A stretch of 28,537 bases of DNA from a virus: positions 1 through 28,537 of IMG/VR virus record IMGVR_UViG_3300046167_000230; one strand, written 5' to 3'. A program made the translations under genes and the position numbers. Within the stretch, counting starts at the first letter, position 1. Each line of letters opens with the position of its first letter. Positions 7,394-24,486 of this stretch are shown here, piece after piece. The notes below the pieces were generated by a model, which ran no database searches, was not told where the DNA came from, and was given only the letters and a program-made list of their open reading frames with translations.

Positions 7394-8317
7394 ATGCGAA
7401 TAGTAGAACTATTATTGGATGAAGAAAGCCTACAAGCAGGTATCCAAGCAATCAGCATCGTAGAAGCTCCTGCAATAGAAGAAGACTTCGTTGCACTTAA
7501 AGAGCAAGAGCGAGTAGAACTAAAGACAATGGATGAAGACAAGCGTTTGCTCTTGGGAGCAGCACTTGTACCTAACAAACCTATCTATCGTAGGAGTGGT
7601 GATGATGAGTATTACATCTACTTCTCACAAGACACGGTAAGAAAGGCAAGTGAGTTGTTCTTCATCAATGGTAACCAGAATAAAGCTACCTTAGAACACC
7701 AAATAGACATTACAGGACTTAGTGTTGTAGAGAGTTGGATAATAGAAGGTGAGCAAGACAAGAGTAAGTTGTATGGTATGGACTTACCTGTAGGCACTTG
7801 GATGGTATCAATGAAGGTTCATAATGATGAGGTTTGGAATGACTATGTCAAGGAGGGCAAGGTCAAAGGCTTTAGCATTGAGGGATACTTTGTAGACAAG
7901 GTAGAGGCGAGTAAGCAATCACCAGAGGAGGAGAAAGCAGAGGAGCAGTTAAATGCGATTAAGGCTATCATCAAGAAAGACTTGAGAACAAAAAAGGGTA
8001 AGCGTACTGAACTTGAGACTTACAAGGACTACCCCACTTCGGTACGCAACAATGCTAAAAGGGGTATAGAGTTGAATAAGAAGGTCAACAATAAGTGTGC
8101 TACACAGGTTGGTAAGGTTAGAGCGCAGCAGTTAGCAAAGGGCGAAGCTATAAGTGTAGAGACTATAAAGAGGATGTATAGTTACCTGAGTAGAGCAGAG
8201 GAGTATTACGATGAGGGTGACACGAAGTCTTGCGGATACATTAGTTATCTTCTATGGGGAGGTAAGAGTGCTAAGAGATGGGCAGAGAGTAAGTTGAAGT
8301 CTCTTGATAAAATCTAA
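7394..8317 (+). CDS. Prohead serine protease, XkdF / Peptidase_S78_2 type, with C-terminal extra domain (307 aa)
   Basis: Residues about 1-170 match the XkdF-like prohead protease pattern: LLLGAALVPNKPIYRR, the motif ATLEHQIDITGLSVVESWII with the probable catalytic His102, and VKGFSIEGYF with the probable nucleophile Ser161. Such proteases cleave scaffold, capsid and themselves during head maturation. An N-terminal ERVELK sequence (residues 40-44) recalls the VEL motif found in the following genes and might be a self-cleavage site (inference). Residues about 205-307 form a second, basic domain with RMYSYLSRAEEYYDEGD and YLLWGGKSAKRWAESKL, a module I have seen in phage head proteins but whose function I cannot state. 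The gene starts 2 bases after the tape measure stop. Confidence 0.85.
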   Translation: MRIVELLLDEESLQAGIQAISIVEAPAIEEDFVALKEQERVELKTMDEDKRLLLGAALVPNKPIYRRSGDDEYYIYFSQDTVRKASELFFINGNQNKATLEHQIDITGLSVVESWIIEGEQDKSKLYGMDLPVGTWMVSMKVHNDEVWNDYVKEGKVKGFSIEGYFVDKVEASKQSPEEEKAEEQLNAIKAIIKKDLRTKKGKRTELETYKDYPTSVRNNAKRGIELNKKVNNKCATQVGKVRAQQLAKGEAISVETIKRMYSYLSRAEEYYDEGDTKSCGYISYLLWGGKSAKRWAESKLKSLDKI

Positions 8318-8327
8318 CAATAACAAA

Positions 8328-8349
8328 CACTAATAGTTAACATACTATG
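8328..8349 (+). promoter_or_regulatory. GGTTAAC-type motif before the internal-protein block
   Basis: CACTAATAGTTAACATACTATG, ending with the ATG of the next gene. Member of the five-copy motif set seen at late block starts. It lies in a 29-base gap after the protease gene. Confidence 0.4.
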
Positions 8350-8691
8350 CAAAGAGTAGAAAAAATCTGGCAGGAGTTATCTGCACAACCTCAAGAAGTT
8401 GAATTAGCTAAAGCGGATGACATTTTAAGAGGTGTATCTTCTTTGGCTACATTATTCTTGAACTCAAGAAACCAACTGCAAAATGCAGGTTTTGATGCCT
8501 TACAAGACTACGATAAAGTAGAAGCAGGTGTTAAGGAGCAAGAGAGAGCGATTAACGACTTTAAAAGTGCTGCTAAAGAACTTGGTATTGACTTACCTAA
8601 TGAGGTAAAAACTGCTGAGAAAGACTTACAAGACATTTCAACAGGCTTGGGTAGAGCCAAGAAGTTAGCAACTGAAGCATCAAAAATGTAA
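8347..8691 (+). CDS. Leader-bearing small helical protein 1, candidate capsid internal protein (114 aa)
   Basis: The first 13 residues MQRVEKIWQELSA are nearly identical to the starts of the proteins at 9616 and 9861 (MKQVEKIWAELSA). The leader ends in QEVELA at residues 17-21. The body is a helical, charged, Ala/Lys/Glu-rich sequence with a KELGIDLPNEV segment that is recognisably shared with the next gene (KELGIEPPAEI). There is no cysteine or enzyme motif. Position between prohead protease and capsid genes, plus the shared leader, suggests a protein packaged into or built with the prohead core and processed by the protease. That role is inference; the paralogy is directly visible. Confidence 0.7.
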   Translation: MQRVEKIWQELSAQPQEVELAKADDILRGVSSLATLFLNSRNQLQNAGFDALQDYDKVEAGVKEQERAINDFKSAAKELGIDLPNEVKTAEKDLQDISTGLGRAKKLATEASKM

Positions 8692-8692
8692 T

Positions 8693-9016
8693 ATGAAAAG
8701 AATATCCCTAAATAAGGTGATGGCTAAATTAGCCGAAGAGCAAACTACCGAGAAGGTGGAACTTGGAGTAGTTGATGACATAAAAGATGCTATTCGTAGA
8801 GGTCAAGAGATTGAAGGTATGCTTAGTCGTGAATTGAATAAGTATAATGGTCTTTTAAGAGCAGCAGGTCAATTTAACAGACACTACAACGATTTAATAA
8901 GCAAGTCTAAAGAGTTAGGTATAGAACCACCTGCTGAAATCAAGAAACTAAAAGACATAGCTGATGGCTTTGAGAAAAAAGGTCAAGCGATAAAGAAAGT
9001 ATCAAATTTATTTTAA
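8693..9016 (+). CDS. Leader-bearing small helical protein 2, candidate capsid internal protein (107 aa)
   Basis: Starts 1 base after the previous stop. The N-terminus (MKRISLNKVMAKLAEEQ) has diverged but keeps the same layout: an amphipathic leader and then EKVELG at residues 20-25, followed by VVDDIKDAIRR, comparable to ADDILRG and VQDILQD in the paralogues. The body contains SKELGIEPPAEIKKLKDI, matching the KELGID.P.E. segment of the upstream protein. Predicted all-helical and soluble, with a basic C-terminus (KKGQAIKKVSNLF). Probably a duplicated member of the same family; function not known. Confidence 0.7.
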   Translation: MKRISLNKVMAKLAEEQTTEKVELGVVDDIKDAIRRGQEIEGMLSRELNKYNGLLRAAGQFNRHYNDLISKSKELGIEPPAEIKKLKDIADGFEKKGQAIKKVSNLF

Positions 9017-9019
9017 GAT

Positions 9020-9616
9020 ATGAAATCACAAGAAACATTAAGCAAGATTATGGAACTGCTTAACCTACAAGATGAGGTGAAGTTGGAGTCTATGAAATTG
9101 GAGAACGGCACGGTAATAGAAGCCGAAGCATTTGAGCCTAACCAAGAGGTATTCATCGTAACTGAAGATGAGCGTATCGCTCTACCTATCGGTGAGTACG
9201 AGATGGAAGATGGTCGTATCCTCGTAGTAGCTGAAGAAGGTGTTATCGCTGAAATCGGTGAGGCTAAAGAAGAAGAAGCACCAGAAGAAGCACCTGCTGA
9301 AGAACCTGCTCAAGAAGAAGAGGTAGAACAAGCAGAAGAAGAGAAAGAAGAAGAGATGGCTTACGCTACTAAGGAAGAACTTACTGCTGCTATGGATGAA
9401 CTCAAAGGTATGATTGATGAAATCAAGTCTATGATGTCACCTAAAGAAGAGGAGATGAGTGAAGAGGTAGTTGAAGAGCAAGTAGAGATGTCTACTGATG
9501 AACCTGCTGCGAAGCCTATCAAGCACAACCCAGAGACTAAGACACCAAAGATGCACAAGTTTGCTGAAGGTGGAAGAAAAGACACACTAAGTAGAATCTT
9601 TGACAAGTTAGGATAA
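9020..9616 (+). CDS. Acidic scaffold-like head assembly protein (198 aa)
   Basis: N-terminal helix MKSQETLSKIMELLNLQ, then EVKLE at about 19-23, then a beta-rich domain (EVFIVTEDERIALPIGEYE, RILVVAEEGVIAEIG) up to residue 80. A very acidic Glu/Ala/Pro tract (about 81-112) and a coiled segment (LKGMIDEIKSMMS) follow, and the tail ends KDTLSRIFDKLG. An acidic, low-complexity, coiled protein encoded between the prohead protease and capsid genes is the usual signature of a scaffold or prohead core protein. The start-site leader is only distantly like those of its neighbours. The stop overlaps the next ATG by one base. Confidence 0.65.
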   Translation: MKSQETLSKIMELLNLQDEVKLESMKLENGTVIEAEAFEPNQEVFIVTEDERIALPIGEYEMEDGRILVVAEEGVIAEIGEAKEEEAPEEAPAEEPAQEEEVEQAEEEKEEEMAYATKEELTAAMDELKGMIDEIKSMMSPKEEEMSEEVVEEQVEMSTDEPAAKPIKHNPETKTPKMHKFAEGGRKDTLSRIFDKLG

Positions 9617-9864
9617 TGAAGCAAGTAGAAAAGATATGGGCTGAATTATCTGCTAAAGAGCAGAAGGTAGAACTTGCTATGGTTCAAGACATATTGCAAG
9701 ACTATAAGACTATGCAAAAAAAATTAGATGCTATGTCTAATACCGCTGCTCGTAGAGCAAGAGATTTTGATGAGGTTATGAAAATGGCTGCTAAAGTAGG
9801 TGTTGATATGGATGCTAAATTTAAAGCAGCAGGTAAATTCTTTAAGAAATTAGAAAAGTTATGA
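9616..9864 (+). CDS. Leader-bearing small helical protein 3, candidate capsid internal protein (82 aa)
   Basis: Begins MKQVEKIWAELSAK, identical over 14 residues to the protein at 9861, followed by EQKVELA (residues 15-21). The remaining 60 residues are strongly basic and helical (KTMQKKLDAMSNTAARRARDF, KAAGKFFKKLEKL), a composition suited to contact with packaged DNA. It overlaps the neighbouring genes by 1 and 4 bases. The shared leader on different bodies points to a targeting or processing signal, not a catalytic domain. Confidence 0.7.
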   Translation: MKQVEKIWAELSAKEQKVELAMVQDILQDYKTMQKKLDAMSNTAARRARDFDEVMKMAAKVGVDMDAKFKAAGKFFKKLEKL

Positions 9865-10232
9865 AGCAGGTAGAAAAGATATGGGCAGAGCTTTCTGCTA
9901 AAGCACAAGAAGTAGAAACTCCTCAAGAATCTACTGAACTATCCGAAGAGAAGGTTGAGTTGGCAGGTATTATGGATGACCTAAAAGGTCAAATGAAAGA
10001 GGCTAATATGGATGCTATTCGTGGTATTGATATGGTACACGATGCTGAAAAACTTTTTGACAAATCAGTTAAAAAACAAAGAGCGTTAGTTTCTCAATTT
10101 AACAAGGGATTGCAGTACGCAAAAGAATTAGGTCACGATGGAGCGATTGCTGACCTAAACAAAGCTATTGCACAAGCAGAAGAAAACTTGAAATCTACTT
10201 TAGATATGATTTCTAATTTAAGCGGATTTTAA
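9861..10232 (+). CDS. Leader-bearing small helical protein 4, candidate capsid internal protein (123 aa)
   Basis: Begins MKQVEKIWAELSAK as in the previous gene. In this copy an acidic insert (ETPQESTELSEE) separates the leader from the KVELAG junction (residues 31-36). The body runs GIMDDLKGQMKEANMDA to SNLSGF, helical, with AKELGHDGAIADLNKAI corresponding to the KELGID segment of the paralogues. Last gene before a strong terminator at 10254, so this transcription block ends just before the capsid gene. Confidence 0.7.
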   Translation: MKQVEKIWAELSAKAQEVETPQESTELSEEKVELAGIMDDLKGQMKEANMDAIRGIDMVHDAEKLFDKSVKKQRALVSQFNKGLQYAKELGHDGAIADLNKAIAQAEENLKSTLDMISNLSGF

Positions 10233-10253
10233 TCAACCACTACAATACTATAA

Positions 10254-10280
10254 GGGAGGGCATTGCTCTCCTTTTTTTTT
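10254..10280 (+). terminator. Terminator after the internal-protein block
   Basis: Seven-pair stem GGAGGGC / GCTCTCC (one G-T pair; 10255-10261 with 10265-10271), loop ATT, then nine T. Confidence 0.92.
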
Positions 10281-10358: not shown

Positions 10359-11279
10359 ATGGCAACATCAATTACTACAACTTACGCAGGTGAGTTCGCA
10401 GGGAAGTACATCTCCGCTGCATTATTGAGTGCTGATACCATTGAAGGTGGTGGTATCACCGTTAAGCCAAATGTCAAGTATAAAGAAGTAATGAAAACTC
10501 TTTCTACTAACGCATTGGTAAAAGACGCTGCTTGTGACTTCGCTGATGGTTCAACAGTTACACTAACAGAGCGTGTATTAACTCCAAAAGAGTTTCAAGT
10601 AAATCTGCAAATTTGCCGACAAACACTAAGGTCGGATTGGGAAGCTGCTGAAATGGGCTACTCTGTCTTTGATACATTGCCTCCTTCATTTGCTGACTTT
10701 GTTATCGGTCACATCGCTGCTAAAGTAGCACAAAAGACTGAAGAGACAATCTGGCAAGGTGATGATGGAGATGAAGGTGAGTTTGATGGCTTTACTGCTC
10801 TATTGGCTGCTGATGGTGATGTTATTGATGTAGTAGGTACTACGGTAACTGCTGCTAATGTAATTGATGAGTTGGGTAAAGTAGTTGATGCTATCCCTAC
10901 TTCAGTTTACGGAAAAGAGGACTTGTACATCTATGTATCTCAGTCTATCGCTCGTGCTTATGTTCGTGCTTTAGGTGGATTTGGTGCATCAGGTTTAGGT
11001 GCTAATGGTGTGAACAACGCAGGTACTACTTGGTTCAATGGTGGTGACTTAGCGTTTGATGGTGTGAAGTTATTTGTTTGTTCTGGTATGCCAGACAACG
11101 ATATGGTAGCTGCACAGAAGTCTAACTTGTTCTTTGGTACAGGTTTATTGAGCGACCACAACGAAGTGAAGCTAATTGATATGGCTGACCTTGATGGTTC
11201 TCAAAATGTTCGCGTGGTAATGCGTTTTACGGCAGGTGTTCAAATCGGTATCGGTGCAGACATCGTTTACTACACTTAA
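10359..11279 (+). CDS. Major capsid protein, HK97 fold (306 aa)
   Basis: 306 residues starting MATSITTTYAGEFAGKYISA. Features seen: an acidic beta-hinge-like region VTLTERVLTPKEFQVNLQIC, DFVIGHIAAKVAQKTEETIW (a long spine-helix candidate), a SVYGKEDLYIYVSQSIARAY segment and a C-terminal DLDGSQNVRVVMRFTAGVQIG, the usual end strand of HK97-type capsid proteins. It is the only gene between two strong terminators, consistent with high-level separate expression. There is no long N-terminal delta domain, in line with a separate scaffold at 9020. The A-rich leader just before the ATG (AAAGAAATAGAAAATGGC) is almost the same as that of the next gene. Identification is by pattern and context. Confidence 0.85.
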   Translation: MATSITTTYAGEFAGKYISAALLSADTIEGGGITVKPNVKYKEVMKTLSTNALVKDAACDFADGSTVTLTERVLTPKEFQVNLQICRQTLRSDWEAAEMGYSVFDTLPPSFADFVIGHIAAKVAQKTEETIWQGDDGDEGEFDGFTALLAADGDVIDVVGTTVTAANVIDELGKVVDAIPTSVYGKEDLYIYVSQSIARAYVRALGGFGASGLGANGVNNAGTTWFNGGDLAFDGVKLFVCSGMPDNDMVAAQKSNLFFGTGLLSDHNEVKLIDMADLDGSQNVRVVMRFTAGVQIGIGADIVYYT

Positions 11280-12019: not shown

Positions 12020-12349
12020 CATATTGTAACCACAACAGATAAGAAGATATACTTTGTTCCAAGAGCGTTTGATACAAGCGTTTCGGTAAAGATTACTGAT
12101 GAGGAGACAAACACTTCTTCTACTGAATCGTTAACTGCTACGCAAGAGGCTAATTACTTGCATATCACACCTACCTATACATTTGAGCAGGATAGATACT
12201 ATACCATTAGAATCACAGGAACTAACGAGATATATAGAGGTAAAGTGTTCTGCACTAACCAAACGGACTTAGAGAAGTTTAGTATCAACAATGGTGAGTT
12301 CACTCACTATGAGGATACTGATAATGATAATCAATACATTTACCGATGA
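12017..12349 (+). CDS. Small beta-rich structural protein upstream of portal (110 aa)
   Basis: 110 residues starting MHIVTTTDKKIYFVPRAFDT. Strand-rich pattern (SVSVKITDEETN, YYTIRITGTNEIYRGKVFCT) like an immunoglobulin-like or small decoration domain. The stop overlaps the portal start by 4 bases. It is the first gene of the block after the terminator at 11951. I do not recognise a named family; a minor virion or head decoration role is plausible. Confidence 0.55.
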   Translation: MHIVTTTDKKIYFVPRAFDTSVSVKITDEETNTSSTESLTATQEANYLHITPTYTFEQDRYYTIRITGTNEIYRGKVFCTNQTDLEKFSINNGEFTHYEDTDNDNQYIYR

Positions 12350-13200
12350 GTAATATACGAATCGTTAACCTCGCCTCACATACAACCCCTGCGGTAGTTG
12401 AAGACAATCGTAAGGAGTGGGTAGCGTATGGCGAAGACAACAACTACTTCCAATACCTTATTGATAGGTACAATGGTAGTGCGACAAACAATGCTATCAT
12501 CAATGGTATGACCGAGCTTATGTACGGCAAGGGATTATCTGCGACTGATGCCTCTCGTAAGCCAGAGGCGTATGCTCAAATGATGAGCCTATTCAAGCGT
12601 TCTTGTTTGCGTAAGGTAACCTTTGACTTAAAAGCATTAGGTCAAGCAGCGTTCCAAATCATTTACAATAAGGATAAGAGTAAGATTGTACAGGTAGCAC
12701 ATATGCCTATAGAGACACTACGCTTTGAGAAGATGAATGAAGATGGTGAGGTATGTGGGTACTACTACTCTAAGGATTGGACAAAGATTCGTAAGAGAGG
12801 GTATGAGCCAACAAGAATACCTGCCTTTGGTCACGGAGAGAAGGGAGATGCTTTAGAAATCTATTGTATCAAGCCTTATCGTTCTGGGTTCTACTACTAT
12901 TCTCCTGTAGACTATCAAGGAGGTATTCCTTATGCTGAATTAGAGGAGGAGGTAGCAAACTACCACATCAACAACATTAAGAACGGTCTAAGCCCTTCTA
13001 TGTTGATTAACTTCAACAACGGTGTGCCTACTGAGGAGGAGAGAGAACTTATAGAGCGTAGAATCATTCAAAAGTTTAGCGGTACTTCTAATAGCGGTAA
13101 GTTTATCCTTGCGTTTAACGATAATAAGGAGATGGCTGCAAGTATTGAGCCTGTACAACTATCGGATGCGAGTGAGCAATACCAATTCTTAGCAGGATGA
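12346..13200 (+). CDS. Portal protein, N-terminal part (frameshifted)
   Basis: 284 residues starting MSNIRIVNLASHTTPAVVED. It contains KEWVAYGEDNNYFQYLIDRY, YNGSATNNAIINGMTELMYGK, the DLKALGQAAFQIIYNK segment and a stem-like LIERRIIQKFSGTSNSG, as in portal proteins of Bacteroidota phages. The frame ends in QFLAG-stop at 13198-13200, in the middle of the conserved portal core. The next frame continues with ESMRKLMVAHRVTSPMLMGI. A single extra base near 13193-13197 explains the break: with one G removed the sequence would read QFLADESMRKL. The portal forms the dodecameric ring for DNA entry, so an inactive gene would be lethal. Confidence 0.85.
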   Translation: MSNIRIVNLASHTTPAVVEDNRKEWVAYGEDNNYFQYLIDRYNGSATNNAIINGMTELMYGKGLSATDASRKPEAYAQMMSLFKRSCLRKVTFDLKALGQAAFQIIYNKDKSKIVQVAHMPIETLRFEKMNEDGEVCGYYYSKDWTKIRKRGYEPTRIPAFGHGEKGDALEIYCIKPYRSGFYYYSPVDYQGGIPYAELEEEVANYHINNIKNGLSPSMLINFNNGVPTEEERELIERRIIQKFSGTSNSGKFILAFNDNKEMAASIEPVQLSDASEQYQFLAG

Positions 13201-13204
13201 GAGT

Positions 13205-14128
13205 ATGCGTAAGTTGATGGTAGCCCATAGGGTTACTTCACCTATGCTTATGGGTATTAAAGACCAAAGCGGTTTAGGTAATAATGCTGATGAGTTGAAG
13301 ACTGCAAGTCTACTCTTTCACAACACGGTTATACGACCTTTCCAAGAGATGATTTTGGATGCTATAGATGATATCCTTGCTTACAATCAAATAAGCCTAA
13401 ACTTATACTTCAAGACATTACAACCTTTAGAACTCCAAGCAGATATTACTGAGGAGCAAAGAGAAGAACTTAGCAAGGTTGAGGATTGTTGTACAACGGA
13501 GTTGAAAGAGGATTCTCGCCCTTTTCTTGATGACAAGTTAGCCCACGAGATGTTAGATGCATTGGCTGACTTGGGTGAGGAAGAGCCAGAAGGCTATGAA
13601 CTCGTTGATGCAGAAATTGTAGGCGATGATGAACCTGAAGACTTTGATGTAGAGAACTACCTCAACGGACTTACTGAATTATCAGCAAAACAAGATAGCA
13701 CTCAAGATGGGGACATCTATAAGGTGAGATACAAGTATGTGAAGGGTACTAAGAAGACTGCTAAAGGCAGTTCTCGTACTTTCTGTAAGACTATGCTATC
13801 TCAAGGAAAATTGTACCGCAAAGAGGACATTGGTATGATGAGTGCAAGAGGTGTTAACAAGAGCTTTGGACACAAGGGTAGAAACTACTCTCTATTTAAG
13901 TACAAGGGAGGAGTAAACTGCTACCATAGATGGGAGCGTAGAATCTACAAGAAGAAGTTGAAGAAGAACGGAGAGCCTTACGGTGGCGATGCACTACGAG
14001 GTACGAGATATGTTAATGTTAACCAAGCGGTAAGAGAAGGATTTAAGCTACCTAAAAACCCTAAAGAGGTTGCAGTAGCACCAATAGATATGCCAAGACA
14101 AGGGCATCACCCTAATTACAAAGGATAA
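13205..14128 (+). CDS. Portal protein, C-terminal part with extra domain (frameshifted)
   Basis: The +1 frame is open from 13193; the first ATG is at 13205. It starts MRKLMVAHRVTSPMLMGIKD, the typical portal segment in which HRVTSPML is highly recognisable. An acidic region follows (residues about 90-155). The C-terminal domain of about 140 residues is basic, with SSRTFCKTMLSQGKLYRKED, GVNKSFGHKGRNYS and YKGGVNCYHRWERRIYKKK. This end domain is a separate module, possibly MuF-like by its GG.NC.H motif, but I am not sure. Whether the two halves are made as one chain by recoding, as two polypeptides, or are joined in an error-free sequence cannot be told here. Confidence 0.85.
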   Translation: MRKLMVAHRVTSPMLMGIKDQSGLGNNADELKTASLLFHNTVIRPFQEMILDAIDDILAYNQISLNLYFKTLQPLELQADITEEQREELSKVEDCCTTELKEDSRPFLDDKLAHEMLDALADLGEEEPEGYELVDAEIVGDDEPEDFDVENYLNGLTELSAKQDSTQDGDIYKVRYKYVKGTKKTAKGSSRTFCKTMLSQGKLYRKEDIGMMSARGVNKSFGHKGRNYSLFKYKGGVNCYHRWERRIYKKKLKKNGEPYGGDALRGTRYVNVNQAVREGFKLPKNPKEVAVAPIDMPRQGHHPNYKG

Positions 14129-23673: not shown

Positions 23674-24486
23674 ATGTCAAAGTTAATTACAATGCTCAAC
23701 GGTGAGCAGCACAAACAAGATTGGCTCGTAGAACAAGCAGCCAACGATGACTTCTACTACGGCTACTTAGGAAAGGTAGCATTCAGTAGTTCCAACATTA
23801 AGAAACTTCTGGACTCTCCAAGAACCTACTACAATCTTATGCAGTACGGTGAGGAGACCAATAGCCAAGCCCTCATAGATGGTAGGCTTATTCATATGAT
23901 GGTGTTAGAACCTCATAAGATTAACGAACTCGTATTCGCAGATGTTACCACTAAGAACACTAAGAAGTGGCGAGAGATGAAAGCTGAGTACCCTGCGCAT
24001 ATGTTGTTTACCCAAAAGGAAAAGCAGAAAGCAGAGAAACTTACTGAGGCACTATTCAAGAACCACCAAGCAGTAGAACTATTAAGAGACTCTACCTTTG
24101 AGGTTGGTGCAGTAGATGACACCATAGAGGGATACCCCTTTAGAGCAAAGGCAGATATCCTAAAGAACGATGGTACTATCATTGACCTGAAAACAACTTC
24201 GGATTTAAGGAATTTCGTGTACTCATCTCGCCATAAATATTCTTATGATGTTCAAGTGTACATCTATTGTAGGCTATTCAATGTTGACTACACTAAGTTT
24301 AAGTTCTTGGTGATAGACAAGCTAAGTTGTGATGTAGGGGTGTACACGGTAAGTGAGGACTTCTACAATAAAGGTGAGGAGAAAGTATTGTATGCCCTTC
24401 AGCAGTATCACGAGTTCTTTGAGAACAGACCTCTGGAGGAGATACAAGAGATGGTTAATAACTACACAATACAAGGAGAGTTATGA
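23674..24486 (+). CDS. RecE-like PD-(D/E)XK exonuclease, DUF3799-like (270 aa)
   Basis: 270 residues. VAFSSSNIKKLLDSPRTYYN and ALIDGRLIHMMVLEP (His74) form the N-terminal pattern. YPFRAKADILKNDGTIIDLK gives Asp161, Asp171 and Lys173 of the PD-(D/E)XK core, then YDVQVYIYCRLF with the conserved Gln194. This is the 'exodeoxyribonuclease VIII, PDDEXK-like' family, which digests one strand from double-strand ends. No separate Redbeta/RecT annealing protein is recognisable, although the SSB-like protein at 19062 may help. Confidence 0.8.
   Translation: MSKLITMLNGEQHKQDWLVEQAANDDFYYGYLGKVAFSSSNIKKLLDSPRTYYNLMQYGEETNSQALIDGRLIHMMVLEPHKINELVFADVTTKNTKKWREMKAEYPAHMLFTQKEKQKAEKLTEALFKNHQAVELLRDSTFEVGAVDDTIEGYPFRAKADILKNDGTIIDLKTTSDLRNFVYSSRHKYSYDVQVYIYCRLFNVDYTKFKFLVIDKLSCDVGVYTVSEDFYNKGEEKVLYALQQYHEFFENRPLEEIQEMVNNYTIQGEL

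Follow-up and report, generated by a model that had tools for sequence, protein, structure and literature searches.

The variable internal proteins of phage T4 carry a short N-terminal propeptide (the capsid-targeting sequence or CTS, 10–19 residues); one of these proteins, IPI, is injected and inhibits a type IV restriction enzyme (PMC9026906; PMC3012670). In the T-even phages these proteins are diverse and the CTS alone is conserved (PMC9026906; PMC3012670); those of T4 are basic (PMC9026906). In phage P1 the first 30 residues of DarB suffice for virion targeting, and no N-terminal sequence common to the Dar proteins was found (PMC9024508). The head proteins of SPN3US and other phiKZ-type phages have N-terminal propeptides of 20–24 up to 254 residues, which are cut by the prohead protease (PMC10052503).

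The DNA analysed here (the whole stretch, hereafter the window) is a 28,537-base virus record with genes for a terminase, a portal, a capsid protein, a scaffold-like protein and an XkdF-type protease. Small proteins made of a conserved leader and a variable body are encoded between the protease and capsid genes, and this interval can be read, with a probability of roughly two in three, as a rack of capsid-targeted cargo genes whose leaders would be removed by the protease and whose exchangeable bodies would be internal to the virion. A feature of the T4 type, a short conserved N-terminal propeptide common to otherwise unrelated proteins, was found here; as with IPI, IPII and IPIII, the proteins behind it are small and fast-varying, and they are encoded among the head genes. 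Removal of the propeptide by the prohead protease has been shown in T4 and is predicted in the present case. T4 uses gp21 as its protease, whereas the sole Pfam match of the protease in the window was PF14550 (XkdF/S78_2). Unlike in T4, the predicted cut falls after V-E-L, the leaders fall into five or more slot-specific classes with a fixed order, and the bodies are built on one helical-hairpin plan and are mobile between leader classes; their median net charge is 0, against the basic proteins of T4, and the genome record has 28.5 kb, against ~169 kb. The leader proteins gave no Pfam or PHROG match to internal proteins and no sequence match to T4 proteins; since the protease is also of another family, the parallel with T4 is one of working and not of descent.

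The P1 proteins DarA and DarB share with the leader proteins an N-terminal targeting signal and a virion-internal location, both of which are predicted here, and DarA is believed to be processed; however, DarB is very large (250 kDa), and PMC9024508 describes no cassette exchange. None of the searches made here matched a protein named Dar. N-terminal propeptides on head proteins, with removal by the protease predicted in our case, are likewise found in SPN3US and phiKZ, but these are giant phages with paralogous large E proteins, and PMC10052503 describes no interchangeable small bodies. The Nonlabens phages P12024L and P12024S have a homologous protease and capsid protein and a putatively homologous scaffold region, with VKM and VKL sites at equivalent places; in contrast, their protease and scaffold are fused and no leader-bearing cargo genes lie between this fusion and the capsid gene.

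The viral record and its head genes

The isolate relatives of the capsid and protease were the Nonlabens (Persicivirga) phages P12024L/S, and the terminase was nearest to that of Parabacteroides and Bacteroides phages, a kinship that points to a host probably belonging to Bacteroidota; the phage is marine. When genome contigs were searched with the capsid protein no match was obtained, and thereby no prophage or cultured host; a search of 50,697 phage records with the 9861 protein (proteins of the interval are named after the first base of their genes) also gave no match, and thereby no cultured host.

The protease scored 54.5 bits against PF14550, for which the gathering score is 24, and thus belongs to this family. 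Its residues ~213–301 form a separate C-terminal domain (phrog_2859), without a Pfam name, that is common to head-region proteins of haloviruses, Vibrio phages, Synechococcus phage S-CBS4 and Pseudomonas phage PaBG. The tblastn match to the protease stops at about residue 200 in several relatives (L011, L020, L021; L-numbers denote related viral contigs or loci), so this domain may be missing or altered in them. Residues 25–137 of the 9020 protein matched the C-terminal part of phrog_24921 (E=6.8e-5), a family annotated as unknown that comprises the P12024 protease–scaffold fusion; the acidic composition and position of this protein fit a scaffold, and we infer that it acts as one. The portal gene consists of two reading frames (12346–13200 and 13205–14128) which match consecutive parts of a single 560-aa portal family, phrog_33693, indicating a break in the frame of the portal, near 13,200, in the record analysed. 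An Rfam search found nothing.

Leader-bearing genes in the window

Four small leader proteins (8347, 8693, 9616 and 9861) surround the scaffold-like 9020 protein between the protease and capsid genes (Table 1). A sequence-only reading of the window had placed here a family of proteins with a common leader and a VEL junction. All four reading frames were recovered, each starting with ATG and nearly abutting or overlapping its neighbours, and their translations put leaders and junctions where that reading had them; the ERVELK stretch that it reported near the N-terminus of the protease is present as well. The 9616 and 9861 proteins do begin with the same 14 residues; of the 42 bases that encode these, 5 differ between the two genes, each without changing an amino acid, a pattern indicating that selection acts on the protein sequence. 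Across the window proteome (8,047 residues), an occurrence of [KREQ][VI][EK]L within the first 45 residues is confined to the four leader proteins, the protease (residue 40), the scaffold (residue 19) and one protein of the tail region (residue 3). Four further points had gone unremarked: the 8693 leader is of another class, an extra class (MKQGKTEKAVFAKLSTEKVEL) occurs in relatives, the 9020 protein has a leader-like N-terminus of its own (EVKLES), and one leader class can acquire bodies from another.

Table 1. Features of the protease–capsid interval, by position in the window (↓, predicted cut)
Feature	Position	Strand	Remarks
Prohead protease, XkdF/Peptidase_S78_2	7394..8317	+	Domain at residues 42-165; Pfam PF14550, E=1.5e-14
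Putative protease self-cleavage site, ERVEL↓K	~7508-7525	+	Residues 39-44, immediately preceding the domain
Slot A leader, MQRVEKIWQELSAQPQEVEL↓A	8347..8406	+	Conserved in 7 distinct proteins, with 5 body families behind it
Slot A body	8407..8691	+	Helical, KELGID; 100% aa identical in L084, 99% in L056/L060
Slot B leader, MKRISLNKVMAKLAEEQTTEKVEL↓G	8693..8764	+	20-nt stretch 8745-8764 common to leader C of L029
Slot B body	8765..9016	+	KELGIE; body with 100% identical DNA behind leader C in L029
Acidic scaffold-like protein	9020..9616	+	Leader-like N-terminus, MKSQETLSKIMELLNLQDEVKL↓ES; further VEM↓S site
Slot D leader, MKQVEKIWAELSAKEQKVEL↓A	9616..9675	+	
Slot D body	9676..9864	+	KVGVD; shortest, 62 aa
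Slot E leader, MKQVEKIWAELSAKAQEVETPQESTELSEEKVEL	9861..9962	+	Acidic insert; MKQVEKIWAELSAK...SEEKVEL↓AG
Slot E body	9963..10232	+	Predicted two-helix hairpin, turn at KELGHD; relatives in L084, L027
Intrinsic-terminator-like hairpin	10252..10280	+	Ends the cassette
Major capsid protein	10359..11279	+	Right border of the cassette; phrog_11320, E=2.2e-50; phrog_1623 (virion structural), E=1.4e-11

A fixed order of slots in related viruses

More than 100 related IMG/VR contigs were found with capsid, leader and body queries. Because the leader classes differ, a single leader alignment was unsuited to scanning the collection, and slot-wise alignments were used instead. The 46 complete, dereplicated intervals gave a common plan, consisting of slots A, B and C, the scaffold, and then D and E (or F in one clade), with any slot able to be missing; up to five leader-bearing genes are present in fixed order between the protease and capsid genes, and an E-type gene precedes a D-type gene in one interval. 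Every slot is marked by a conserved leader of its own, with K-V-E-L↓(A/S/G/N) at its end: MQRVEKIWQELSAQPQEVEL in A, MKRISLNKVMAKLAEEQT-EKVEL in B, MKQGKTEKAVFAKLSTEKVEL in C, MKQVEKIWAELSAKPQKVEL in D, MKKVESIWAELSAKAQEV...ELSEEVKVEL in E and MKALTKLWSEM...QEVKL in F. Among loci with both borders present, no leader proteins were found outside the interval. In L101 a small non-leader ORF (MAVTNVDTTHTVSNISNPPTRI...) lies 460–32 bases before the capsid gene, after the last leader gene. A compact clade of 15 loci (L055, L062, L066, L068, L070, L075 and others), in which the capsid protein is ~80% identical, has the scaffold alone in the interval; the cargo is thus dispensable in some lineages.

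The sequence-only reading had envisaged one common leader copied onto new bodies. This part has to be given up, since several slot-specific classes exist in a fixed order and bodies move between them. Its modular view, in which a fixed leader and a varying body meet at a VEL boundary that is probably a cleavage site, now has strong support from more than 100 contigs, from DNA breakpoints at VEL and from the matching sites in protease prodomain and scaffold.

Exchange of bodies at the VEL junction

When 147 distinct leader proteins were cut after the last VEL-like site and their bodies grouped at 40% identity and 70% coverage, 88 body families were obtained, of which 33 had more than one member; 12 of these 33 occurred behind at least two leader classes (85, 30 and 11, respectively, in an earlier set). 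Conservation of the leader relative to the body holds in homologues: for proteins of the same slot with different bodies (1,930 pairs), leaders were 87% identical per position and bodies 9%, and for the same body in different slots (23 cross-slot pairs) the values were 37% and 87%. Free shuffling of slot labels in the earlier set rendered ~25 multi-slot families out of 30, compared with the 11 observed; slot fidelity is therefore considerable and exchange is constrained.

DNA homology between copies of a body begins at the VEL codons or at most ~20 nt from them and ends just past the stop codon, continuing further where the next gene is the same. Breakpoints flank the body on both sides, with little homology outside it, in L011/L018, L043/L021 and L029/L013. 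From the 8693 body through the spacer after it into the first part of the scaffold gene, the window matches L029 at 100% identity; in L029 this body is preceded by leader C, and a 20-mer (ctaccgagaaggtggaactt, 8745–8764) is common to leader B of the window and leader C of L029; from these two observations the 8693 gene looks like the product of a deletion between B and C leaders, in which one body and one leader would have been lost. In L023 (3423–3881) and L038 (238–723) the same body stands behind leaders C and E and the terminator-like hairpin is kept downstream in both, so the exchanged unit can include the 3′ hairpin. The window also encodes, at 23674–24486, a PD-(D/E)XK nuclease-like protein (DUF3799, E=8e-21), a predicted phage recombination nuclease that could assist short-homology exchange.

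Turnover and selection

Comparison of L045 with L046 showed 98.6% identity for the capsid gene, 95.9% for the protease, 92.7% for the scaffold and 94–98% for the leaders, while all three bodies aligned no better than shuffled sequences (baseline 68.7%, maximum 72.1%). The pattern was much alike in L060/L061, L020/L021, L010/L012 and L095/L096, and 13 of the 16 pairs with a capsid DNA identity ≥0.94 have no body family in common. The dN/dS ratio was 0.06–0.20 for leaders and mostly 0.02–0.31 for bodies within families, including copies on different leaders. Bodies are under purifying selection; the low ratios, even across leaders, indicate that they are functional and that the exchanges are not assembly chimaeras.

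VEL-type sites in protease and scaffold

Placing the cut at V/I/L-x-L fixes L at P1 and makes the junction logo circular in part; in this logo, P3 was V in 101/112, P2 was E in 93/112 and P1′ was A, S, G or N in 104/112. Independently of the cut rule, all clades with leaders have VEL, IEL, IKL, VKL or IQL immediately before the catalytic domain of the protease; the leaderless compact clade has FEF or VEF there, its prodomain site being mostly HKFEFK. At the leader-like position, the scaffold N-terminus of most clades has EVKLE, EIKLE or EVKVEM; sites of the form VEM↓S or VDL↓S follow further along. In the compact clade the scaffold reads EVKVEM↓AT, a shifted site type. In the P12024 protease–scaffold fusion, a leader-like helix (KKPTKFEQFMQLFAED) lies between NEVKM↓S and AAVKL↓GEV, and these paired sites are placed as would be needed to free the protease and scaffold parts. 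The recurring sites are good circumstantial evidence, though no proof, of cleavage after VEL.

Fold and composition of the bodies

The KELG(I/H)(D/E) segment first seen in the window proved to be real: in its strict form ([EDK][LMV]G[IVML]) it was found in 60 of the 88 body families, compared with 4.1 ± 1.9 in shuffles (maximum, 10 families). A looser form lies mostly 30–45 residues from the C-terminus, and most bodies follow a helix-[ED]LG[IV]D-helix pattern. The AlphaFold2 model of 9861 (mean pLDDT 82.7; block means mostly 85–97 over residues 41–120) has a leader helix at residues 2–17, a helix at 21–90, a turn at the motif and a helix at 93–121; a second model, of the L056 body, was all-helical at moderate confidence. 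Foldseek matches (Rop, ferritin, AvrRps4 hairpin) were generic helical hairpins, none with E <0.1, and the PDB-sequence profile search rendered mainly designed bundles and coiled coils; Pfam and PHROG body matches (DUF6468, ferritin, GCN5L1, tape measure, baseplate hub) were rejected as scattered, weak coiled-coil hits. Pfam, PHROG, fold and PDB-sequence searches linked no body to a known anti-defence protein. The bodies contain one Cys in 15,133 residues, whereas the rate elsewhere in the window predicts ~102; this depletion is suggestive at most, because other helical virion proteins show it too (the probable tape-measure protein has no Cys in 615 residues).

Discussion

The leader/body modularity, the exchange at VEL, the recurrence of the site in protease and scaffold, and purifying selection are direct observations. 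They can be accommodated in a scheme in which a slot-specific amphipathic leader would dock each protein to the scaffold or core inside the prohead. During maturation the XkdF-type protease would cut after V-E-L (consensus K-V-E-L↓A/S/G/N) and, in the same step, process the scaffold and its own prodomain. What stays in the head would be a small two-helix protein, poor in cysteine, which would probably exit with the DNA. Bodies are swapped between leaders and phages at the presumed cleavage-site boundary, so that cargo could be replaced without disturbing targeting. That the leader proteins are capsid-targeted, protease-processed precursors we consider highly probable, and it seems reasonably probable that the mature bodies stay in virions. 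The great speed of their turnover suggests that, once mature, they work on the host during infection, in counter-defence or takeover, like T4 IPI; that the bodies are injected proteins of this kind is put forward only tentatively, and any part in anti-defence is speculation. The helical-hairpin pattern that the bodies share would go equally well with a structural role in the core.

Such a role is the substance of the main alternative, in which the leader proteins would be accessory scaffold or core subunits that aid head building and disappear, by degradation or loss, as the head matures; their bodies would be coiled-coil filler that drifts or is exchanged. Leader genes flank the scaffold gene, one hairpin plan runs across the bodies, and T4 IPIII also affects head assembly (PMC9026906). 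However, discrete body families under strong purifying selection would be needless for filler, it is odd, if structural fit matters, that phages whose capsid genes are 98.6% identical have had every body replaced, and the compact clade manages without leader proteins; we therefore hold this explanation to be unlikely. Leaders might instead be uncleaved docking tags for the scaffold, with the VEL junction merely a linker that tolerates recombination. Short DNA homology at some junctions, such as the 20 nt common to the window and L029, could alone explain a breakpoint; yet there is almost no DNA homology at several other breakpoints, V-E-L is kept in the protein where the DNA is not, and the motif, in a form that depends on the clade (VEL, IEL, VKL or IKL), recurs in the scaffold and ahead of the catalytic domain of the protease. 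This makes the uncleaved tag improbable.

Assembly chimaeras, the remaining explanation, would have put leaders on the wrong bodies, and every relative is an uncultured IMG/VR contig. Against this, the same body occurs on different leaders with a synonymous divergence of up to 0.7 and a conserved protein; for B_83/C_112, pS was 0.69 and pN 0.04, which cannot be due to a chimaera at one locus. The contigs and samples are many and independent, and the VEL junctions are in frame throughout. Chimaerism was rejected on the synonymous divergence, and the chance that it accounts for the exchanges is minimal.

A constant CTS in front of a varying protein was already known from T-even phages (PMC3012670). 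The sequence-only reading knew of no description of the present arrangement, and none was found in the open-access literature searched. As far as that literature shows, what is new is the presence of several leader classes in fixed slots in small phages with an XkdF protease, together with the common hairpin plan, the cross-class exchange of bodies at the presumed cleavage site and the very fast turnover. If the reading is true, ~88 candidate injected proteins would be available as a catalogue for counter-defence tests, and the leaders would be natural short signals for loading proteins into small phage heads. Head delivery of cargo by cleavable leaders would extend beyond large myophages, and small phages would have a cassette system that holds targeting and cleavage site constant while renewing the cargo within the time in which capsid genes diverge to 98.6% identity. 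It is conceivable, though we would not wager on it, that a large group of small marine phages has a fixed multi-slot rack in the virion head, in which slot-specific leaders dock the cargo, the protease site doubles as a recombination boundary and a common pool of at least 88 injected, exchangeable hairpins makes up a quickly renewable anti-defence arsenal.
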